Source: a methanogenic archaeon ISO4-H5 (GTDB lineage: Archaea > Thermoplasmatota > Thermoplasmata > Methanomassiliicoccales > Methanomethylophilaceae). Taken from it: a stretch of DNA of 64,000 bases. The stretch covers positions 868,001-932,000 of the forward strand of contig CP014214.1 of assembly GCA_001560915.1 (NCBI GenBank). Direction: 5' to 3'. This document shows, piece by piece, positions 561 to 63,656 of the stretch. Made by a program: the position numbers and the translations under genes. Every line of letters begins with the position of its first letter. Within the stretch, counting starts at the first letter, position 1. The notes under the pieces were generated by a model, which made no database searches, was not told the DNA's origin, and saw only the letters and a list, made by a program, of their open reading frames with translations.

Positions 561-1973
561 ATGTCCTTCCGCTGGGCTCTTCCGATCGCAGCCGTCCTGA
601 TGGCGACGGGATTCATCCTTTTCACGGAATGTGCGGATGAGTCGGAGGCTCTGAACGAGGGCTACAAATTGGATTGGGAAGGTAACGATCTCACCGCTAC
701 GGGCAGCGGCGACTTCCAAAGTGATCCGGGCTGGACCGCCCTGGAGAATCTGACCATCGTTCCCGATGGCGGCGAGGTGAGTATACCCGATGAGGCGTTC
801 CAGAATAATGCCACACTCAGAACCGTCACCATCCAGGGTTCAGTCGGTTCCCTCGGCGGAGAACATGCGTTCTATAACTGCGATGCGCTGGAAACCGTCA
901 TCGTACATGGTTCGGTGGGTTCCATCGGTTTCAGTGCAATCTCTTACTGTGGTGCCCTCACCACAGTTACCATAGAGGGATCTGTGGGACATGTCGGAGA
1001 ATGTGCATTTTAGTCCTGCAGCATTCTTGGCACAGTAACCATAAAGGGTACTGTAGATTCCATAGGCAATACTGCGTTCATGGGCTGTCATGCCCTTACC
1101 ACAGTAACCATAAAGGGTTCCGTGGAGTCCATCGGCTCGAATGTATTCTCTTACTGCGATGCCCTCACCACAGTAACCATAAAGGGTTCCGTGGAGTCCA
1201 TCGGTGAGGCTGCGTTCGAAGCCTGTGCTCTGACCGCTGTTGCCCTTAAGGGCCCCCTGCAGTCTATCGGATCAGATGCGTTCCGTAATTGCAAAGCCCT
1301 AACCTCAGTAGACATCGAGGGTTCCGTGGGGGCCATAGGTTATGGAGCCTTCTGGAACTGCGATGCCCTTACCACAGTAACCATAAAGGGTTCCGTGGAG
1401 TCCATCGGGATCGAAGCGTTCTCATCCTGCGACCATCTAGGCACCGTTACCATCACCGGTCCGATTACCGCTATAGGCGGAAATGCATTCTTCGGAAGTG
1501 AGAATCTGGAGACCTTGAACATCGCCTGCAACGACCCGCTGAACATCACCGCGGGAAGTGCTGATAACGGTCGCATCGCACAACATGCCGTGACCGTGAA
1601 CCATGTCCATAGGTATTCCGCCACATACACGTGGGCCGACGACGGGAGTTCCTGCACGGTTCACATGGTATGCGCCAACTCCTCCGATCACAAACACGAT
1701 GAGATTCCTCCGGTTACCTCGGTCGTGAAGATTCCACCCACCGCGACAGAGATGGGAACCACCGAGTATTCCGTGTCGGGTACCTACGACGGCTTCGCCT
1801 ATTCCGACACCAAGGACGTGCAGGACATCCCTGCGACCGGTGGAGATCCCTATGACCCAGGCGATAAACCATCAAGCCATAACCGGTTCCTCGCACTCGC
1901 ACTTACCCTGTCTGTGCTGTCCCTTCTCGGAGTGGTCGGTGCAGTGGTCCTTCTACGCAGACGTACGGTCTGA
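561..1973 (+). CDS. BspA-like leucine-rich-repeat surface protein with one in-frame TAG codon
   Basis: Cell-surface protein of 470 codons. The N-terminus MSFRWALPIAAVLMA is a signal/anchor segment and is shared with the BspA protein at 30789-32078. LRR_5 (BspA/TpLRR) repeats of the type ALTTVTIKGSVESIG follow. A C-terminal ectodomain (HRYSATYTW...DIPATG) and a membrane helix with an RRR tail end the protein. Codon 151 (1011-1013) is TAG. Reading straight through it restores the repeat in register: F-TAG-SC-SILGTVTI aligns residue for residue with F-S-YC-DALTTVTI in the next repeat. The gene ends in TGA. It is therefore annotated as one gene with UAG read as an amino acid (pyrrolysine is the candidate). 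The alternative is a nonsense-mutated pseudogene or a base-call error. Confidence 0.8.
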
Positions 1974-44362: not shown

Positions 44363-45931
44363 ATGGGCAGCGGCGGATATTATTCCTGCAGTATGTGCGG
44401 TTTCAAAAGCGACGAGATCTGGTTCGGTGGCGGTTTCATCGGCAACGACCGCAATCCCGTGGTCAGGGACGAGATACTGGACGGAGAATATGGGGATGTA
44501 CCCAAGAAGATACTGGAATCGGAACCGGACGTCCATTACTACGGACAAATGGACGCGTTCCGCTGCAGGTGCGGGAAGTTCTCGTCCAAATCTACAGTGA
44601 TGATTTTTTCTGCAGAGGGGAAGCAGCTGTATGCACCGACTATGAATTGCGAACTCTGCGGGAAGAGGATGAGGAGACTGAGGAACCCCGGAGGAAAGCA
44701 GGAATGCCCGAAATGCGGTATGCAGCTGGATTTCTACAGCACTGTATTGTGGACTGATACAATGGATTACAAAGAATACTGGTCAATAAGAGGAAATCGT
44801 TTCGTTACCAAGGATGATTTCCTTGAGGTCTCTGTGAATGCCGATGGGGGCCAATTATGCGGATTGGCACAGGATTTGAGAGCTGCTTTCTCGGGTTACG
44901 TAAATCTCGATCTATCAATTGAATTCGTCAGAAAGGCACTGGATATGGATCTCCGTCCATTTAGCAGAAAGATAGCTTATGGAATTCTGATAGATGATGC
45001 GTTGTTGAAGGGATTGCCGTATCTCGGAATCCTGAAGGAGGCATTGGAGGACGGCGTTATACCTGACAGGCCTCTGAGAATGACCGAATCAGATACGGAA
45101 TTCATTCGCAACAATTCCGGTAATGTCAACGATTACTATTCACTACTACATTTCTGCTGGTCGGACAGACACAAGGCAGACAGTTATTGGGCGGAGAGGG
45201 CACTGCAGGCCCTGGAATCGAGGATGTCAAAAGGAGAATCCGCATCGGAGACCGTCCGCAATCTTTTCACATTGTCGGGTTTCGATTGCGGAGAGGACTA
45301 TGACAACAGACTCCTGGCTATTGTTGACAGAACATTATCAAGAAAAGATGTAGAGGATGGGCGGGGTATAACATTCGGTGATTTGCACAAGACACTGGAG
45401 AATATCAGCGGAAAGAGAGAGGATGAATTACTTATCAGATCGGCGGCGAAGGGTTACTGGGAATCCGTGGACGATGTTCTCCTGCGCTACCCCACCGCTG
45501 ATGAAATCCTGAAAGGGAAATATGCCAATGCGATTAACGAATGTATAAGGAACGGAATACAGGGCCGTATATTGACGGACAGGGAATATTTTAGTCCGTA
45601 CTGCATTCTTCCGGAACCTTCCGTCAGAGTGATGATCGATTATCTTGATGAACAGATTGAACTCAGGAACATATAGGAAGATGGCAGCGAAGCCGCCGGA
45701 ATGTATTTGGCAGTCGCCAAATCGTTGTTCGCAAGGGGAGATACAGAGGCATTCAGGTATGCGGCAAGATGCTCAAGCATCGGCATCTGTCCATATCTAT
45801 ATTCCATGCTGGTGGATGGATTCGGGACGGAAAAGAACGAGGCATTGGCAATGAAGGTTGCCAATTCTTTTGATGAAAACAATCTGGCTTTGCTGAAATC
45901 TGTATTATCCGAATGTAGGGGGGAGAGGTGA
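44363..45931 (+). CDS. zinc-ribbon protein with C-terminal Sel1-like repeat, one in-frame TAG
   Basis: 522 codons. The N-terminal 135 residues have CSMCGF, CRCGKFSS and CELCGKR...CPKCGMQ, i.e. two zinc ribbons. A helical region of about 300 residues follows that I do not recognise. Codon 438 (45674-45676) is TAG. The same frame continues EDGSEAAGMYLAVAKSLFAR then YLYSMLVDGFGTEKNEALAM, a Sel1/TPR-like repeat, to TGA at 45931. The continuation lacks a sensible start of its own. GGTGATG precedes the ATG. Read as one protein, it needs UAG decoding. Confidence 0.6.
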
Positions 45932-49779: not shown

Positions 49780-50793
49780 GTGACACAATTCGAAGATATT
49801 CCTAGACCCAAAGTTGACATTGCTAGAATCAAATTGTTTGGTAGTATTCCTAGGAAAGTAGTTGAACTTATGGATCCAGGAGAATTTGAGTGCTTTGTTA
49901 CCGAATGGCTTTTTTCAAAATATTCCAATATACAGCATATTGGAAAGACAGGCGACCTGGGCAGAGATATCATCGCATGGTATGAAGATGGCACATGTGA
50001 CATTTATCAATGCAAGCATTATTCTGAGAGCTTCGACGCGGAGAAAGAGATCTTAAAACTAATAGATAATCTTCAGAAGGGCAATTTCCATCCACCTAGG
50101 TGTTATTATTTCGTGTGTCTTAATGGTCTATCTTCGAAGTGGCGTGATGCAATTATCAATGATGAATTAGAGGCTGTATGGGTAAAATGGTTCAATGGTA
50201 AAGAGAATATTAAAAAACAACATCCAAATCTTTTACAGTACATCGATGCAAAAGGGTTTCCAACTGTCAAAGAAGTATCTATCGATACTATAATCAGTGA
50301 GCACTTAAGGACAGTTTATGGCAAATTACGGTTTCAAACATATGAGAACATAGAGCGCGTATCTGTTACCGATGATGTTGACAGAAGATATATCTCTGAA
50401 CTTTACAAAGCATATTCTGAAAAGAGCGGAAATCAGATTTCCGCAGATAATATAGAGCAATTCAAGAATTTTTCAGATGATTTAGAATATCAGAAGGAGT
50501 GCTTTTTCTCTGCAGAATCACTTCGGTTAACCACTGAAGAATATATATTAGGCACCTCTGAATTCGATAAACTCAAGAACGAGATGCATGATAGTGTCAG
50601 AGAAGTATAGTTATCTGAATATTCAAACGGCTATCAGTGTTTGTTGGCCGTCATGAATAAGGCGACAAATACTGTTTTGGATCTTTCGTTGTTACAGAGT
50701 AGATATAAGTTAGTCTCTAACCGGGATCGTAAAGGATTATGCCACATGTTAGTGAATGATTCTTTCTTTGGGTGGTCAGTTAATGATAAATGA
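49780..50793 (+). CDS. ABC-three-component (ABC-3C) system effector: Mrr-like nuclease domain plus CTD, one in-frame TAG
   Basis: 337 codons from a GTG start. Residues 30-85 have a restriction-endonuclease fold: FECFVTEWLFSK, IGKTGDLGRDIIAWYEDGTC then DIYQCKHY, the D...QxK site of Mrr-like nucleases. Codon 277 (50608-50610) is TAG. In the same frame the C-terminal domain continues LSEYSNGYQCLLAVMNKA and RDRKGLCHMLVND..FGW, the G-x-CH-L-N..W ending of ABC-3C C-terminal domains, to TGA at 50793. The readthrough end overlaps the next gene by 11 bases, as in operons. AT-rich codon use. Confidence 0.7.
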
Positions 50794-51202
50794 TCTAAGG
50801 TATGAACTTTCTATTCATGTGCTGATTATTTTGGATTCAATAGGTTCTGCATCATTAAGTCGTATCGCGTTATATGATTTCATTGCCACTCATGGACAAT
50901 TATTCGGTGTTTCGGATTGTAATTTGATCGAAATCGGTGCAATCAAGAGTCAGGCGTTTCTTGGGCGTTTAACATTGTTCGATGATGCAATTCTTTTTCA
51001 GATTGCAAAAGGCAACATCCTTCCAGTTTTTTCCCAAGATGGTTTGAGATATACACTATCCTTTCCTGGAAAGCAATATATCAACGATTTGAATGACACA
51101 TTTTGTGATTATTTGCATGATATTTGTAAGACTATTAACGAACATTACAGCAGGTATTCGGATTCTGAGCTGTCTGTTTTGATTCAAAGGAAGATAAGAT
51201 GA
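50783..51202 (+). CDS. ABC-3C system middle component
   Basis: 139 residues from the ATG at 50783: MINDLRYELSIHVLIILDSI, LSRIALYDFIATHGQLFGVS, ending RYSDSELSVLIQRKIR. It has the length and winged-helix-like look of the small middle component in ABC-three-component systems. It lies between the nuclease and ATPase genes, overlapping both (11 and 4 bases). It probably bridges the two. It ends in TGA. Confidence 0.7.
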   Translation: MINDLRYELSIHVLIILDSIGSASLSRIALYDFIATHGQLFGVSDCNLIEIGAIKSQAFLGRLTLFDDAILFQIAKGNILPVFSQDGLRYTLSFPGKQYINDLNDTFCDYLHDICKTINEHYSRYSDSELSVLIQRKIR

Positions 51203-52923
51203 AGACGATCCTATTTCAATGTTTGACGATATATAACAGGCGGGGTGAACCTTCTGTTATTGATTTTGCTACTGGCAGTACAGGTAGTCTTACAGTGATT
51301 TATGGGCCCTCGGATACAGGCAAGACCTGGGCTCTTAAATGTATAGGAATAGCGTTGGGAAGAACTTGGGATAATACGTTACCTGATTCATATGTTAGTG
51401 TAAAACTGAAAATGCGTGTTGGAGATGCTAAGGTAATAATAAGAAGACAAAGGTCCGATAATAATCTCGAGATATCAAAGAATGGATCACCTTTTGAACA
51501 AATACCGATAAGTAAATCTAAGGAAGAGTTAAATAGTAAATTATCAGAAATTATGGACTTCAATTTCGATAGAGATTTGATAAAAAACACTAGAAATGAA
51601 AGATCAAAATTCTCATGGTTATCATTGGTCGATCTTTTCACATATACATCTGATATAGATTCCGAAGATTCAATATTGAAAGGCAAGCAAAGCTATATCT
51701 CTACATTAACAAGGCTTAATTATCTATTCAATGGAGATGTTTTTGATAAATACATCGATAAGAAAGAGTCTGACCGGAGCAAGTCTGTTTATGATTATTT
51801 AAACCAGCGCATAAAGACATTGCAAATAATGTTATCGAACCTTGATTCGGAAGATGGGCAAAATCTAGAAAATATTTCTGATCTTCTCTCACACGAAGAC
51901 AATCTGTTGGCCGAAATCCAGAAGCTCAATGAACAATTAGATGGGGTTCGTAATGAGATTAGAACCAAGGATATTGAAAAAAATACTGTTAGCATGGATA
52001 TAGATAAATATCGTATTTTAAGAAATCAATATAATTCTAAAGCTCAGAGAATGAATTTTATTGCAGATGCTATAGCCAACGAGCGCAATTCTGCTCATTT
52101 ATGCCCAATTTGTCATAGTAACATGAAAATCGATTTGAATACTCCTGAACTATCTTCCGTGATAAAGGAATATCAAAATAATGTCAATCGTTCTGAAGAG
52201 CTTAATGTACTATTGAGTAGCTTAGAAAACCGTTATTTGGATATATGTAGGGATTATTCAAATTTAAAAAATCTCGAAGGTGATTTGGAATTTAATATTA
52301 AACAGCATAAAACTGATTATGCTGAAGTATCAGCTCTAATAAAGGGTGTGTGTGATGGTGCAGAAACACGCGCAAAAGGGATAAGAGCAAAACTTGAATT
52401 AGAGTCGCTTCAGAGCCAATTATCTAAAAATCCAGAGATTAAATACGAGGCTTTTGAATCAAAATGTATAAATCAGTTATTTAAAGAACTGGTGGAGAAT
52501 GAACTAAGTGATTCTTTAAAAAAATGTTTTGGTTATTCAGATATCAAACTTGACAATCAATGGAATCCCATACTAGACAATAAAGCGAAAAGCACGCATG
52601 GTTCTGGATATCGCGGCCTAATCAATTCACTCACATTACTAGCCATCGCGGTAGTCCTGAAACGTAACGGTTCATTTCCTGGCTTCATAATAATAGATTC
52701 ACCATTAACAGCATTTAGTGAAAATAATAACAAAAGTTGTATCGCGTTAAGATTTCTTGAATACTTGAAAAATTGTTCTAAAGAAATACAAATTATAATT
52801 GCAGAGAACAATGAGAATATTGCAAACGAATTAGAAACGAAATATAATGATAACACGATATTTTTCACAAAATCGAATAATGGCAGATATGGGTTGTTAA
52901 ATGATTATAGCCTAGGGCCTTAA
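51199..52923 (+). CDS. ABC-3C system SMC/Rad50-like ATPase
   Basis: 574 residues. Walker A GPSDTGKT (about 36-43). Long coiled-coil arms follow, with CPICHSNM in the middle (a CxxC hook-like turn). A C-terminal STHGSGYRGLINSLTLLAIA signature-like segment and Walker B GFIIIDSPL complete the ATPase, followed by IIAENNENI. The architecture and the gene order nuclease - middle component - ATPase fit an ABC-3C anti-phage system. The start overlaps the previous stop (ATGA). It ends in TAA. Confidence 0.85.
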   Translation: MKTILFQCLTIYNRRGEPSVIDFATGSTGSLTVIYGPSDTGKTWALKCIGIALGRTWDNTLPDSYVSVKLKMRVGDAKVIIRRQRSDNNLEISKNGSPFEQIPISKSKEELNSKLSEIMDFNFDRDLIKNTRNERSKFSWLSLVDLFTYTSDIDSEDSILKGKQSYISTLTRLNYLFNGDVFDKYIDKKESDRSKSVYDYLNQRIKTLQIMLSNLDSEDGQNLENISDLLSHEDNLLAEIQKLNEQLDGVRNEIRTKDIEKNTVSMDIDKYRILRNQYNSKAQRMNFIADAIANERNSAHLCPICHSNMKIDLNTPELSSVIKEYQNNVNRSEELNVLLSSLENRYLDICRDYSNLKNLEGDLEFNIKQHKTDYAEVSALIKGVCDGAETRAKGIRAKLELESLQSQLSKNPEIKYEAFESKCINQLFKELVENELSDSLKKCFGYSDIKLDNQWNPILDNKAKSTHGSGYRGLINSLTLLAIAVVLKRNGSFPGFIIIDSPLTAFSENNNKSCIALRFLEYLKNCSKEIQIIIAENNENIANELETKYNDNTIFFTKSNNGRYGLLNDYSLGP

Positions 52924-55472: not shown

Positions 55473-56240
55473 TTAGATTTCATTCATGTAATCAAGCAAA
55501 AAATGTTTGATTTTTGCATTCCTCTTCCTGACGAATTCTAGATTCCCTAACATCCAAGAATGGTATTCTATGTGGTCATGGGGAAAAGGATCTTTCTCGA
55601 ACAATTCAGTTTTTAGCCACAGATTAACTTCCGAATATTCTTTAGAAACACAATCCTGCAGGAAGAAGAATTCAACATAACCCTTGAAGTCCACGAAAAG
55701 ATCGAAGAAGTCCCTGTCCTGTTCGAGGCACCAGGATATGGGGCTTTCCTCTCCGGCATAGTATCTCCTTATGCATTCGAGAGTCAGGTCCCAGCGGTCG
55801 GCGATGTATCTGTTGGTGCCTTTGATCTGATTGATGCTGTTTTTGTGTCTGGGGAAGATGATGGATCCGCCGATGGTGTAAGTCTTGTGGATGAAGTCTT
55901 CGATGAAAGCATGATAGTCATCCATGTCTGATTCGACTGATTCGAGAAGCCTCCTACACCTTTCGTATCTGAAACTTGCAGCGATGTTGTCGCTGCTGAA
56001 TCTCATACCTTTCCATTTCAGATATCCCGAAGGGTCGTCCTCCAGGACCATCCGTTCGCCGTTTGGGAGATCCCTGCTCCAGAGGATCTTGTGGTATTCG
56101 CGAAGTGTCGGACTGAATGTATCGGGATCGAGTCTGCCTATGCCGAGGCCGTTGCGTCTTTCCCAGAATCCGTCCCAGTATTCGGGGGTGTCGGAGGTAA
56201 AGTCGTAATTTACATCAATACGTTTAGCGCTTTTATGCAT
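55473..56240 (-). CDS. DUF6994 family protein
   Basis: 255 residues. IDVNYDFTSDTPEYWDGFWE, TFSPTLREYHKILWSRDLPN, FSSDNIAASFRYERCRRLL, IIFPRHKNSINQIKGTN and RWDLTLECIRRYYAGE are the conserved blocks of a family I know as DUF6994. The role is unknown. Base composition is host-like, in contrast to its AT-rich neighbours. It ends in TAA, 11 bases downstream of the nuclease-like gene, on the same strand. Confidence 0.7.
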   Translation of the reverse strand: MHKSAKRIDVNYDFTSDTPEYWDGFWERRNGLGIGRLDPDTFSPTLREYHKILWSRDLPNGERMVLEDDPSGYLKWKGMRFSSDNIAASFRYERCRRLLESVESDMDDYHAFIEDFIHKTYTIGGSIIFPRHKNSINQIKGTNRYIADRWDLTLECIRRYYAGEESPISWCLEQDRDFFDLFVDFKGYVEFFFLQDCVSKEYSEVNLWLKTELFEKDPFPHDHIEYHSWMLGNLEFVRKRNAKIKHFLLDYMNEI

Positions 56241-56251
56241 AAATTGTCATT

Positions 56252-57436
56252 TCACATTTTTTCTTTGAGTACAGGCAGGCCTTCTATTACCGGATTGATT
56301 TTTTTAGGGATGGTAACTGTTACAAATTCGGTTATTTTCTTTTTCAACTGGTTTTCAATATCTTTATCATCATTAATTTTAAAAGATTCAGAAAATACCC
56401 TGGAATACATCCCTGTACTCTGGGCACGGTTCTTTAAATTGTTAGAAAGGTGATCATAGATAATTTGACGCTTTTCAGGATCGATTGCAGGTCCCAACGT
56501 TAGTGTAAAGGCCGAGTTGCCTTGGCGATTATTAATAATTTCAAACAACAAAACATCATCACATTTATCAAACCAGTCGCTTGTACCAAGGCCTCCCACC
56601 TTTTCCAAGATTAACGGTGTAGTAAATCTGATGTAGCTGTTATTGCTTTTCTTAATAATTACCCCTGGCAAATCTTTGAGAATCCTCTTGATTAGTTCTG
56701 CGCGTTTATGGAATGAATCCGGAATGTTTTCAATCAGCAAATCTATTGCTTTTTTGTGCCGTGCATAGATGTCGCTGCACAGTTTCTGAATCTCAGTTTC
56801 TTCGTCACCCAACATCTCTTTCAACATCTCCGTATAGTCAGTAATGTAATTCAAACCTGGGCTATCCTTGGGAATACGGCCCGTTATGGAATCTAAAATC
56901 CGAATAATCTGAGGGTATCCGATAGGCACCCATTCCTTGTCGATTGCTTCGGACTGATCCAAGGTAAGATACACGAAAAATTTCTTTTTTACCTGCGAGT
57001 ACAATTCATTAACCGTTACCCGATAATCTGATGTTTGCCCAGGGGATTCTTTTGAACGGATTTTATTCTCTATTACTAATACAAAAGCAGCTTTTTCGGA
57101 CTCGATTATGATGTCCATATGATGAAGTTCGCGATGAACTATCGCATCGTCGAAATCCATATTATCTATATCGAAAACATCGATCTTCTCTAAACCAGCA
57201 GAAGATGCATATTCGAATAAGAATTTTTTTAGGAAAATGTCTCCAAGTTTATGATTTCCGGCCGGATCTAGTAACCATGCTAAAAAATTACTATGCCGTA
57301 TTTCGTTATTTTCGATTGACAGTATTCTGAAAATATTAACATTGTCGGCAAATGTTTCTAATTTATCCAAAGAATCAGTGTCTAAAAGTAACTGACGTAA
57401 TACATTTTTGTCTTCTTCGGATTCGTTGATTGTCAT
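56252..57436 (-). CDS. PD-(D/E)XK nuclease superfamily protein
   Basis: 394 residues. IRHSNFLAWLLDPAGNHKLG near residue 45, then HMDIIIESEKAAFVLVIENK, the D...E-x-K catalytic pattern of the PDDEXK_4 family. GLNYITDYTEMLKEML and a C-terminal substrate domain follow. Such proteins are usually in mobile or defence contexts. The start at 57436 follows an AT-rich promoter. It ends in TGA, just before the DUF6994 gene. Confidence 0.85.
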   Translation of the reverse strand: MTINESEEDKNVLRQLLLDTDSLDKLETFADNVNIFRILSIENNEIRHSNFLAWLLDPAGNHKLGDIFLKKFLFEYASSAGLEKIDVFDIDNMDFDDAIVHRELHHMDIIIESEKAAFVLVIENKIRSKESPGQTSDYRVTVNELYSQVKKKFFVYLTLDQSEAIDKEWVPIGYPQIIRILDSITGRIPKDSPGLNYITDYTEMLKEMLGDEETEIQKLCSDIYARHKKAIDLLIENIPDSFHKRAELIKRILKDLPGVIIKKSNNSYIRFTTPLILEKVGGLGTSDWFDKCDDVLLFEIINNRQGNSAFTLTLGPAIDPEKRQIIYDHLSNNLKNRAQSTGMYSRVFSESFKINDDKDIENQLKKKITEFVTVTIPKKINPVIEGLPVLKEKM

Positions 57437-57789
57437 GTGTCCCTCTTTATTTTTCGAGTTAGAATTGTTTTTTCAATAATTATTTTTCTTTTTGTATAAG
57501 TGTCATTTAACCTACGGAGTGTGATGATAAACGTTATTTCTGATGATTCAACTTATTTTATTTCCTTACTTTCATATTAGCGTGTTATCTGTAAATATGA
57601 AGAATATCAAAAAATACGCCTGCTGAACACTCTCTTCTTTTTGAGAAACATAACATAAGTATACCTATAACAACCCGATAAATCTAACATTTTTGTCGAG
57701 GTGCTGAGGAAGCACTGATAGTGACTTTATATCAGTTCTTATAAGCCCAATTCGTTTAGGCCCAGATATTTCAAAGAGATTAATTTAAT
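57437..57789. other. AT-rich divergent promoter region
   Basis: No gene was seen in these 353 bases. The region separates the divergent nuclease and membrane-protein genes, with TATA-like runs on both strands (for example ttttaatatga directly before 57790). Confidence 0.4.
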
Positions 57790-59067: not shown

Positions 59068-60171
59068 TTATTTGAAAATTTCATGACTTATTCCGTTATT
59101 GTCACATAATTTGCAGTAGTATTCGTAATGGGACGGTTCCATCAGTGGACTGAACCAAACATGTTTGATGTTTTTGGGTTCGAGTTGCATATACCACCGA
59201 TTTTTATCAGACTCATGTTGTAATTGTATAGCTGGGCGAACAATTCTGAATTCGTTTTCCCAACGATAAGACTCATCTTTGAAAAAAGGATCGAGAAAAG
59301 GTTCACAACCAATCAATCCTATTAGTTTTCCAATCGATTTAGCAGTCTTTTTTTCATGAGAATGGTAATCTCCGAACAATTCCTTGAAATGATTCATCAC
59401 GTCTAATGGTTTAGTCACCTAGTTTCCGTAAACAACCTTTGATGCGAGATTACTAATCTTCTTATCGAATTGGACACAGATTCCCTTATTGCCTGCGTAC
59501 TAATCCCACATTTTTGGGTCTTGATTAGTTGTGCATAAACAACAGACTCTAGAAACCTCACGAGCTTTATTCAAAAGTTGGGAATAATTGCCATAAGTAT
59601 CTACAGTTTCTCTAATGGTTTCAGGCTTGTAACTTGACAATTCCAGGATATCTGATAAAATCTTTTTAGAATCTTCATCCACTGATAAATTAAGTAGATC
59701 TCTACACCATTGAAAACTCATGTCTTGTTTATCCTAAAATTTACTGGGTGGAGAAAAATTGAGTTTGCAGTCGCCTATTAGGTAACGAATGTAATCATCC
59801 TTATCTTTAACAAAATGATAAAGGCAATTGTTCTTTGTCTGAATACAGTTGCGAAGTTTAGTTACTTCTTGATTCCGATAAACATTGTTAAGTAAATTGG
59901 AAGGGTTGGTTTTAATAGATTTGATAAAGCTGTTGAATACAGGGGCAAATGTTGAGAAGCGTTTGTTTATAAGTTCTTTATTTTGCAATAGAATGCGTTG
60001 AATTTCATCACGCGGGCAATCTGTATCAACGTTTTCAGTAACCCATTTTACAGCTGAATTGAAGCCTATCGCATTATTGTCGATATCAAATTTTTCTTTA
60101 AACTTGAAAAATGAATTGATAAGCATTTTCTTTTCACTCACATACAAGATAGGATTGTTAGTATTACCCAA
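59068..60171 (-). CDS. DUF2971 family protein, single frame containing three in-frame TAG codons
   Basis: 367 codons, uninterrupted except for TAG at codons 146 (59734-59736), 224 (59500-59502) and 251 (59419-59421). The translated stretches join exactly as in DUF2971: CLYHFVKDKDDYIRYLIGDC, NFSPPSKF-TAG-D (family: FND), CLCTTNQDPKMWD-TAG-YAGNKGICVQFD (family: MW-HYA-H-G-C-EFD), VVYGN-TAG-VTKPLD, then DESYRWENEFRIVRP. No frameshift, TGA or TAA interrupts it. About 115 residues precede the DUF2971 core. DUF2971 proteins are found in defence islands; the role is unknown. It ends in TAA. Confidence 0.7.
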
Positions 60172-60364: not shown

Positions 60365-61624
60365 ATGAAAGGTTCGTCGGATAATCTGATATTCTTCATG
60401 GATGAATCACAAAAAACCGACGTTTTTCAGATAAGGGATGGAAAACCTACATTTGATACTCATGATAATCTTTATTCTTTCATTGGTTTGTTTTGTGGAT
60501 ACCCTGTAGAGAAAGTCGACCAATACCGCAATTTGTTCATATTGTTCGAATCAAAATGGAAACCAAAATACAGCATCCCTCTTGATCAAGAATTTAAATC
60601 CACTGTCATTAAGAAAAAGAATTTTGAATACGGATTCGCATCTTTGAAGGGGAACGGCAAATTTTTTTATCATGATTTTTTAGAATTACTAGTCCGGATT
60701 AATCCGGTTATATCAATATCGTTCTCGAACAAGATAGAACTTTTACTTCGTAAGACGATTAGTAACATTAAACTCGAAAACAAGCGTAAAAACAACTTCT
60801 TTTACATTCTTAGTAAGTTTTTTTCCCTCTACGGAGATGGTGGTTTTTTTGACAAAGTTATTAAATATCCTGAAGAAGCGATATTTGAATTGTCTGAAAG
60901 GCTCAAACAAATCGCAAAACACGATGCTAGCGTACCCAGATTAGAGAAGAGAAATGACGCATTCTAGGGTGCGGCGTGCATATTGGATCAAGTTACTTTT
61001 GATATAACTCCAGTGAACCATTCTGCTTTCCCGTTTATTGTTCTCCCGGATGCATTAATACTCCTATTAGACGAACTAGGCATAAATCCGAAAGATGTGG
61101 ATGTGGTAATCGATGGAGAGGAAGGCCTGTATACTTGTTTTGAGGGACGTTTTCATAACTCCAGTTTCGCAAACTCAAAAGAAGAACCGATGATTCGTAT
61201 TTGCGATCATTTGGTGGGATTAATTTCCCGTATGTGCTACGCTTTGAGAAATGATCTAGGGAGGCGTGAAGCTTCACCAAATGCTAGTTTTGAGGAGAAA
61301 AATAGACTCCGTATCCTCAGATCTGAGTGGTTTGAGATAAGTGAGGACATATTCAATTTGTACAAGCAGACTTTTGTTGTACTTGTACAAAACAATCAGC
61401 ACTATTGGACAACGCTGACTACTGCTCTTTCCGATGATTTGACGTATTTTATTACATTACTTGCTTATTTTCACTATATAGAGTCATATGATGAGTATAT
61501 GAAGAAAACGTCTGTGGAACATTCGCGTTTGTTCGAACAATTTAGTATCGACTGCATGGAAAAAATCCCGGAACAACCTACTAATCCTCTCGAAGTACTC
61601 AAAAAGTATAACTCTCGAGTATGA
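60365..61624 (+). CDS. DUF3800-like protein with one in-frame TAG codon
   Basis: 419 codons. The N-terminus NLIFFMDESQKTD matches the start of DUF3800 (hhh-DES). Codon 201 (60965-60967) is TAG, after RLEKRNDAF. The same frame continues GAACILDQVTFDITP and VDVVIDGEEGL, then 180 further residues to TGA at 61624. The continuation has no ATG for several codons and no ribosome binding site, so it is best read as one protein. AT-rich. Possible RNase H-like nuclease fold (family knowledge). Confidence 0.6.
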
Positions 61625-61778: not shown

Positions 61779-63656
61779 ATGATTATCTACCGTAACAAGC
61801 TGTCCGGTTTCTTCGAAGACGTCAACAAACGGTGCATCATAAATAAGATTGAAACTGCCATGGGCGAATACCATCTTGGATACAACCCAGACTCTGAAGA
61901 GAGGGCATGGATGGATTCAACCCGCAACATGAAGGAGGTCCTGGAAAAGGCGGGGCTTCCAGGCGATGTCGGCGTATTCATCGAATTCAACATCCCATTC
62001 ACCGCCAGCAGGATCGACTTCGGTGTAACTGGTTTTGATAAGAACGATGTCCATTCTGCCGTCATAGTCGAACTCAAAGGGTGGTCATACGGTGTCAGGA
62101 AATCCGAGAGCGAGGGCATGGTCTATGCCGACTTCTATCGCCGCGATGTTCTGCACCCCTCCTACCAGGCTTGGAGCTATGCCAACTATCTCAGATACTT
62201 CAACAGCGAAGTCGTCGACGGACAGGTCCTGGTGACCCCCTGTGCGTACCTGTACAATTTCTCCCGTGATGCGGGATCCAAGGTTCTGAATGACCCGCAG
62301 TACGATTACTACACGCAGAAAGCCGAGGTATTCTACTACGAGGACATGGAATCTTTTTCAGATTTCATCAGGAATCACATTTCGAAACCGGACTCGCTTG
62401 CCACTTTGGAGAAGATAGAGAACGGGAAACTGACTGTGTCCTCCTCCCTTCAGAAATCGTTGAAGAGAGTACTTCACGAGAAGGATTTCTTCGCTCCCAT
62501 GGACAGGCAGGTCGAAGTATACCAGAAGCTTCTGAGGGGTATCAGGGATTCGTATAATAACCGCATCAAAAGAGTATTCATCGTCAGAGGCGGACCGGGT
62601 ACCGGAAAATCGGTTCTTGCATTGAAACTTCTGGCAGAACTCACAGGCGGATATGAGAACAAATTCACCGGGAATCATATAGCGATTCCCACGCTTTATG
62701 TGACAAAGACCTCGGCTCCCAGAGACATCTATTCCAAGGAACTGAAGGCTCTTTCCAAAGAGGTAGATGTTAAGTTCCTCTTCAAGGGTGCTTCGTCCTT
62801 TGTAGGGGCCGATAAGAACGAATATCCGGCCATACTGGTTGATGAGGCACACCGTTTGACTACCAGATCCTCGCAGTACATCAAAGGCGGTAAGAACCAG
62901 GTTATGGAGATTATCAATGCCGCTCTTGCCAGCGTGTTCTTCATCGACGAGGATCAGAATGTGTCCATGCAGGACATAGGCACCATAGATGAGATCGAGA
63001 AATGGGCGAACGAATTCGGAGCGGAGATTGTTACGAACGGATTGGTGCTTTCTACTCAGTTCAGGTGCAGTGGTTCTGGTTTATACATTGCGTGGCTGGA
63101 TAACTTGTTAGGCATTAGAGAATCGAAGGATTTGAACCTGCTCGGAAAGCTGCCCTATGACATTTCGGTTGCGGACACGCCAGAAGATCTAATGAAGAAG
63201 ATCGAACAGAAGAGATCTGAAGGTTTCGATGCACGCATCCTCGCTGGTTATTGCTGGGATTGGAACAGTCAAAACACCAAGGATGGTACTGATTTCAGTC
63301 TGGAAGGAATCGGGGAACAGAGGTGGAATACCGACTATTCCTGGGCCAATAACAGTAAGATGGCTGATGAGATTGGCTGTGTACATACTGGGCAGGGAAT
63401 GGAATTCCAGTATGCAGGAGTAATCATCGGTAAAGATATGGTCTTCCGCAATGGCAAGATTGTTACCTGTCCGGAAGAGAATCATGATAAGGGTGCACTC
63501 GGTGGATGGAAAAAGGATCCTGCCAGAGCTGATAGGATTATTAGGAACATTTACCGCACCTTGATGACGCGTGGGATGGATGGATGCGTTGTGTATTGTT
63601 TGGATGAATCTTTGAGAGAACACATCAAGGAAAAGATTTCAGAAATTGCATATTGA
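61779..63656 (+). CDS. DUF2075 helicase-like protein with N-terminal nuclease-like domain
   Basis: 625 residues. The N-terminal 230 residues contain FIEFNIPFTASRIDFGVTGF and AVIVELKGWSYGVRKSE, a D...E-x-K pattern compatible with a PD-(D/E)XK nuclease. The DUF2075 (Schlafen group III-like) helicase follows: Walker A RGGPGTGKSVLALKLL, Walker B AILVDEAHRLTTR, FFIDEDQNVSM, STQFRCSGSG, and near the end VHTGQGMEFQYAGVIIGKD and TLMTRGMDGCVVY. It is probably a DNA/RNA helicase-nuclease of defence type. Composition is host-like. It ends in TGA. Confidence 0.88.
   Translation: MIIYRNKLSGFFEDVNKRCIINKIETAMGEYHLGYNPDSEERAWMDSTRNMKEVLEKAGLPGDVGVFIEFNIPFTASRIDFGVTGFDKNDVHSAVIVELKGWSYGVRKSESEGMVYADFYRRDVLHPSYQAWSYANYLRYFNSEVVDGQVLVTPCAYLYNFSRDAGSKVLNDPQYDYYTQKAEVFYYEDMESFSDFIRNHISKPDSLATLEKIENGKLTVSSSLQKSLKRVLHEKDFFAPMDRQVEVYQKLLRGIRDSYNNRIKRVFIVRGGPGTGKSVLALKLLAELTGGYENKFTGNHIAIPTLYVTKTSAPRDIYSKELKALSKEVDVKFLFKGASSFVGADKNEYPAILVDEAHRLTTRSSQYIKGGKNQVMEIINAALASVFFIDEDQNVSMQDIGTIDEIEKWANEFGAEIVTNGLVLSTQFRCSGSGLYIAWLDNLLGIRESKDLNLLGKLPYDISVADTPEDLMKKIEQKRSEGFDARILAGYCWDWNSQNTKDGTDFSLEGIGEQRWNTDYSWANNSKMADEIGCVHTGQGMEFQYAGVIIGKDMVFRNGKIVTCPEENHDKGALGGWKKDPARADRIIRNIYRTLMTRGMDGCVVYCLDESLREHIKEKISEIAY

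Follow-up and report, generated by a model that had tools for sequence, protein, structure and literature searches.

Does an in-frame TAG end a gene or belong to it? In the genome of the methanogenic archaeon ISO4-H5 this question is raised by a DUF3800-like reading frame interrupted by TAG at codon 201. The frame lies in a stretch of 64,000 nucleotides (hereafter the window), positions 868001–932000 of the single contig of 1,937,883 bases that makes up the genome; the published account, as excerpted, gives 1,937,882 bp and 54% G+C (PMC5011839). An initial annotation had proposed that the frame continues through the TAG as one gene, and we assessed this by homology searches, structure prediction, analysis of the surrounding genes and comparison with other genomes.

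The reading frame and its internal TAG

The plus-strand frame comprises 200 codons, the TAG as its sole internal stop, 218 further codons and a terminal TGA (Table 1). Coordinates, frame and length of the open part after the TAG were all as first annotated, and the translation contains both motifs singled out then, the N-terminal DES (present as MDES) and, after the TAG, VDVVIDGEEG. The chance of 218 stop-free codons is about 1e-7 (at a GC of 0.367). The accompanying claim that the second half has no start of its own nearly holds but is not strictly correct: the stretch 3' of the TAG offers TTG (60983), GTG (61013) and ATG (61190) as possible in-frame starts, with a weak GGTG (60968) 15 bases 5' of the TTG. 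These would give some room for two separate proteins, an N-terminal one of 200 residues that stops at the TAG and a C-terminal one started separately at TTG 60983 or later.

Table 1. Coordinates of the DUF3800-type gene, its conserved acidic codons and the neighbouring island genes (positions in the window).
Feature	Position	Strand	Remarks
Lamassu LmuA (Mrr-like nuclease + CTD6)	49780–50793	+	One in-frame TAG, codon 277 (50608–50610)
Lamassu LmuC (ABC-3C middle component 2)	50756–51202	+	
Lamassu LmuB (SMC/ABC-type ATPase)	51199–52923	+	
DUF6994 protein	55473–56240	-	No TAG
PDC-S26 / PD-(D/E)XK_4 candidate defence protein	56252–57436	-	No TAG
DUF2971 / PDC-S31 gene	59068–60171	-	Three in-frame TAGs: 59734–59736, 59500–59502, 59419–59421
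DUF3800-type gene, predicted RNase HII-like nuclease	60365–61624	+	419 aa with TAG read as a residue
D13-E14 codons	60401–60406	+	Identical in 39/39 homologues, before TAG
In-frame TAG, codon 201	60965–60967	+	Inside predicted helix 191–208
D250 codon	61112–61114	+	Identical in 39/39 homologues, after TAG
D281 codon	61205–61207	+	Identical in 39/39 homologues, after TAG
Schlafen group 3-type (SLFN-g3) helicase	61779–63656	+	Weak PDC-S41 match, no TAG

Homology extends across the TAG

The read-through product matched the Pfam family DUF3800 (PF12686) with an E value of 0.0037 and 18.4 bits over residues 9–289, TAG included, which covers positions 1–148 of the 149 in the model, and neither the pre-TAG half nor the post-TAG half alone had a Pfam match. 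The score is below the curated cut-off of 21 bits, though relatives match the model: in the alignment used for structure prediction, composed of the ISO4-H5 protein and 21 loci chosen from those fetched, 21 of the 22 members, the ISO4-H5 protein included, match PF12686. For this reason we call the protein DUF3800-type and not a formal member of DUF3800.

With a profile built from 39 homologues the pre-TAG half (E 9.5e-19), the post-TAG half (3.4e-30) and the whole protein (3.8e-53) were all matched, collinearly, the best E value among 400 shuffled halves used as control being 0.26. The 39 homologues are what remained of 49 loci (L006–L054) after removal of three without a located ORF (L050, L051 and L054) and seven short or truncated frames (L035, L036, L040, L044, L047, L048 and L049), and every one of them is a full-length single ORF that aligns across the TAG. 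Loci in genome contigs and viral contigs were collected by N-terminal motif patterns, with a bias towards that N-terminus, and the invariance near residues 13–20 is partly due to this. The ISO4-H5 protein keeps 13 of the 14 positions identical in all 39 homologues, and the post-TAG half keeps six of six. Among the residues kept are D13, E14, D250 and D281, so the protein has the N-terminal D-E-S/T and the later conserved acids that we take to define DUF3800. A sub-alignment scan found 44 further loci, 41 in genome contigs and three in viral contigs. The column occupied by the TAG is variable and mostly polar in the homologues (E in 14, S in 8, Q in 7, N in 5, K in 2 and Y, R and G in one each) and is directly preceded by a near-constant A-F; codons for Q, E, K, S and Y are a single base change away from TAG.

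When the read-through product was compared with plasmids by tblastn, 17 records were found, each of which matches at least 80% of the query at a single place. On plasmids of S. aureus, E. hirae, Lactococcus and E. faecalis, annotated homologues are single CDSs of 384–498 residues. Homologues consisting of one half only had been named at the outset as evidence against a single gene; they were sought with each half, and the three records found with the post-TAG half and the one found with the pre-TAG half all belong to the 17 plasmid records already found with the whole protein. With no one-half homologue found and 39 of 39 homologues whole, though in a set gathered mostly by N-terminal motifs, two separate products appear highly improbable, the more so as the predicted sheet and the conserved acids (see below) require both halves. 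Used as a query, the protein had no match in phages, viral contigs or genome contigs, none in PHROGs and no meaningful one in a sequence search of solved structures.

A predicted RNase HII-like fold requires both halves

AlphaFold2, using the 22-sequence alignment, gave a model of the 419-residue product with a mean pLDDT of 77.5 and a pTM of 0.81, in which strands are predicted at residues 8–14, 38–47 and 115–122 before the TAG and at 246–250 and 265–269 after it, whilst residue 201 sits within helix 191–208. One RNase H-like fold spanning the TAG had been suggested as a check on read-through, and the product is indeed predicted to be RNase H(II)-like. In VIA the top 17 of the best 50 rows were all RNase H2/H3 chains (Z 6.7–8.9), the next row being another fold (Z 5.6), and the RNase H2/H3 alignments begin near model residue 7 and extend to 300 or further; Foldseek was weak (best E 0.1), and the RNase HII comparison is that of the VIA rows. 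The model shows an RNase H-type mixed sheet that carries acids on its first strand and on later ones, which speaks to the fold only. The ISO4-H5 protein would thus share the fold of RNase HII/H2 (1eke, 1uax and 3puf; Z 8.8–8.9), but at 6–12% identity and with large extra helical parts, and it shows no sign of being a housekeeping RNase H. Compared with DUF3800 (PF12686), it has a long helical stretch between the strands, with the TAG inside it.

The order of the conserved acids, D-E ... D ... D, matches that of RNase HII, a likeness of order and not of aligned residues. Order and predicted fold together suggest that D13-E14-D250-D281 may correspond to the D-E-D-D metal-binding nuclease site of RNase HII. 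According to the model, a 200-residue product would be missing half of the conserved acids as well as the last strands. Homology across the TAG and the predicted single fold thus bear out the initial view of one continuous gene, and the apparent halves are most likely one intact gene.

Five TAGs in three genes of a defence island

The gene is part of an island that runs from about 49.7 kb to beyond the end of the window, with a G+C content of 35–40% at 50–62 kb versus 47–58% across most of the remaining window. Its Lamassu operon, LmuA-LmuC-LmuB, is complete (49780–52923), and 3' of the window the island goes on with DndC, DndD/PbeC-like, helicase and MzaB-like genes (L064:1256–8406). As the initial annotation had it, the adjoining DUF2971 gene, divergent from the DUF3800-type gene, contains three TAGs (codons 146, 224 and 251), and the island carries several such codons: five in three genes, namely one in LmuA, three in the DUF2971 gene and one in the DUF3800-type gene. 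One TAG of the DUF2971 gene falls inside the motif W-D-TAG-Y, where we presume histidine to be usual, and the LmuA TAG column reads H, H, A, C and C in five homologues. Across ten island gene frames (4189 sense codons) we counted five internal TAGs, no TAA and no TGA; the probability that five of five stops arising by single-base changes would be TAG is 0.004–0.005.

The stretch 57515–57712 (+), with one TAG and two TAAs, may be a remnant of the 3' end of another, decayed DUF3800 gene; its E value was 9e-4 in a first search and 0.02 against the homologue profile, a longer piece reaching 0.31 and the best shuffle 0.26.

The main rival to a translated TAG is a recent pseudogene: an acquired nuclease gene would have suffered a plain nonsense mutation, the TAG, too recently for its second half to have decayed. 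Accessory genes in islands are frequently lost, none of the other 146 genomes of the order holds a close homologue of the ISO4-H5 protein and hence a close relative that conserves the TAG, and the remnant, with a profile E value of only 0.02, hints that decay may happen in this island. Recent decay would, however, have to account for five TAGs over three island genes with no other internal stop, for the retention of every invariant residue after the TAG and for a host able to decode UAG (see below), and we regard it as unlikely.

Genes adjoining the homologues were scanned for 18 chosen frames from 16 of 18 listed loci. A restriction, methylase, AbiEii, OLD-like or PD-(D/E)XK gene adjoins at nine of the 16 (L011, L015, L016, L018, L020, L024, L027, L033 and L041), six have only a recombinase, TraG, HerA or ArdA gene, and one is without a Pfam match; the Lactococcus homologue is flanked by HsdS and HsdR genes. 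We infer that the ISO4-H5 protein would act on invader nucleic acid together with its neighbours.

Probable decoding of UAG as pyrrolysine

PylS was found over the cut-off in the ISO4-H5 genome itself (1415817–1416530), and the N-terminal PylS family is absent from it, as is usual in Methanomassiliicoccales. Next to PylS a tRNA-Pyl-like sequence of 71 bases, whose anticodon is CTA, was picked out by eye and folded; it is missing from the outputs of ARAGORN (bacterial mode) and Rfam (gathering threshold). Because PylS and a tRNA-Pyl (CUA) sequence are present, the TAG is decodable as pyrrolysine. The reading of UAG as pyrrolysine is an established mechanism for this kind of organism generally, and a 2025 report is said to describe archaea in which every TAG codon is read as pyrrolysine. 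In the methyltransferases MtmB, MtbB and MttB pyrrolysine is catalytic and conserved. Their UAG is decoded by tRNA-Pyl (PMC4153887, excerpted text), as we propose for the DUF3800-type gene, but the TAG column of the latter is variable, and pyrrolysine there would look neutral. No stable RNA structure was found 3' of the TAG (z-score -0.22 for the 100 bases from the TAG) and no PYLIS-type element after it by Rfam match; the excerpted literature describes RNA signals of this type as non-obligatory (PMC4153887).

For ISO4-H5 the excerpted literature describes the complete pyl operon and counts 46 genes that contain in-frame amber codons, with 17 hypothetical genes and Cas3 among them (PMC5011839); for M. 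alvus it gives 16 genes of this sort beyond the methyltransferases, including Cas1 (PMC4153887). In both organisms, the first of which is our own, the TAG stands in genes that are whole in relatives and defence genes are included, as in the present case. Because 46 amber-codon genes have been published for ISO4-H5, the DUF3800-type gene is of a kind already known. DUF3800, DUF2971 and Lamassu are not named in the excerpted text on amber genes in either paper (PMC5011839; PMC4153887), and none of the literature matches listed, with subscription journals mostly outside their coverage, describes pyrrolysine in a protein of the DUF3800, DUF2971 or Lamassu families.

The genome was sequenced with 454 alone (PMC5011839, excerpted text), which brings sequencing error into consideration. 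Other ways of decoding UAG, by near-cognate read-through or another suppressor, were considered as well. A length error would shift the frame and not create an in-frame TAG, and error would be needed five times in three genes; other decoding has to be set against a dedicated CUA tRNA sequence and a synthetase. We give such explanations hardly any weight.

We therefore consider it quite likely that TAG specifies pyrrolysine at codon 201 of an acquired nuclease gene. PylS would charge tRNA-Pyl (CUA), the charged tRNA would insert pyrrolysine at codon 201, at a helix position where relatives tolerate E, S, Q, N, K, R, Y or G, and the DUF3800-type product, 419 residues long, would fold like RNase HII. 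This implies that UAG in the mRNA of the gene would be translated, and from the sequence we strongly infer that it is read as pyrrolysine. Since the TAG column is variable, a neutral replacement is favoured over a catalytic pyrrolysine at position 201. If the UAGs are translated, the genome would offer a natural example in which defence genes, once acquired, have drifted until they depend on the expanded code of their host. A more far-reaching idea, which we think very doubtful, is that the effectors LmuA, DUF2971 and DUF3800-type protein are made whole only when charged tRNA-Pyl is available (methylamine growth), their toxicity being restrained otherwise, and that the island is thereby tied to pyrrolysine-decoding hosts and dead on arrival elsewhere. 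In archaea that decode pyrrolysine, defence genes are split or missed by standard annotation, which in this island would call the Lamassu nuclease, the DUF2971 protein and the DUF3800 nuclease each as fragments.

TAG and other internal stops across the order

Among 147 genomes of the order, DUF3800 (PF12686) had 67 matches, six of them interrupted, five by one TAG only and one by TGA plus TAA; outside the order, in a sample of the phylum, four of 36 matches were interrupted, none by TAG only. Of the six genomes of the order that have an interrupted copy, five had PylS over the cut-off, as against none of the four outside the order; one of the TAG-only genes (G136) belongs to a genome in which PylS did not reach the cut-off. 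Three of the five TAG-only matches amount to a single gene, near-identical (0–3 differences per 870 bases) in three PylS-carrying genomes of one related genus (L091, L092 and L093). The order-wide TAG pattern is thin, its counts being few and not independent. DUF2971 had nine matches in the order, of which two were interrupted, both by TAG only; a further DUF2971 gene, in genome G080, likewise holds three TAGs. When 464 kb were screened by codon usage for stops flanked by coding sequence, TAG did not stand out (TGA 165, TAA 68, TAG 38), and 27 of the 331 longest ORFs in the 464 kb sample end in TAG, a loose upper limit, since shadow ORFs and read-through genes swell the count.

Further frames running past a TAG were seen elsewhere. 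A BspA-type leucine-rich repeat gene at 561–1970 (+) of the window runs through a TAG at 1011–1013, and the frame at 44363–45928 (+), which has no Pfam match, has a TAG at 45674–45676 followed by 84 open codons. At L061:7613–9200 an IS605 OrfB/TnpB-type gene is followed by more than 100 open codons past its TAG.
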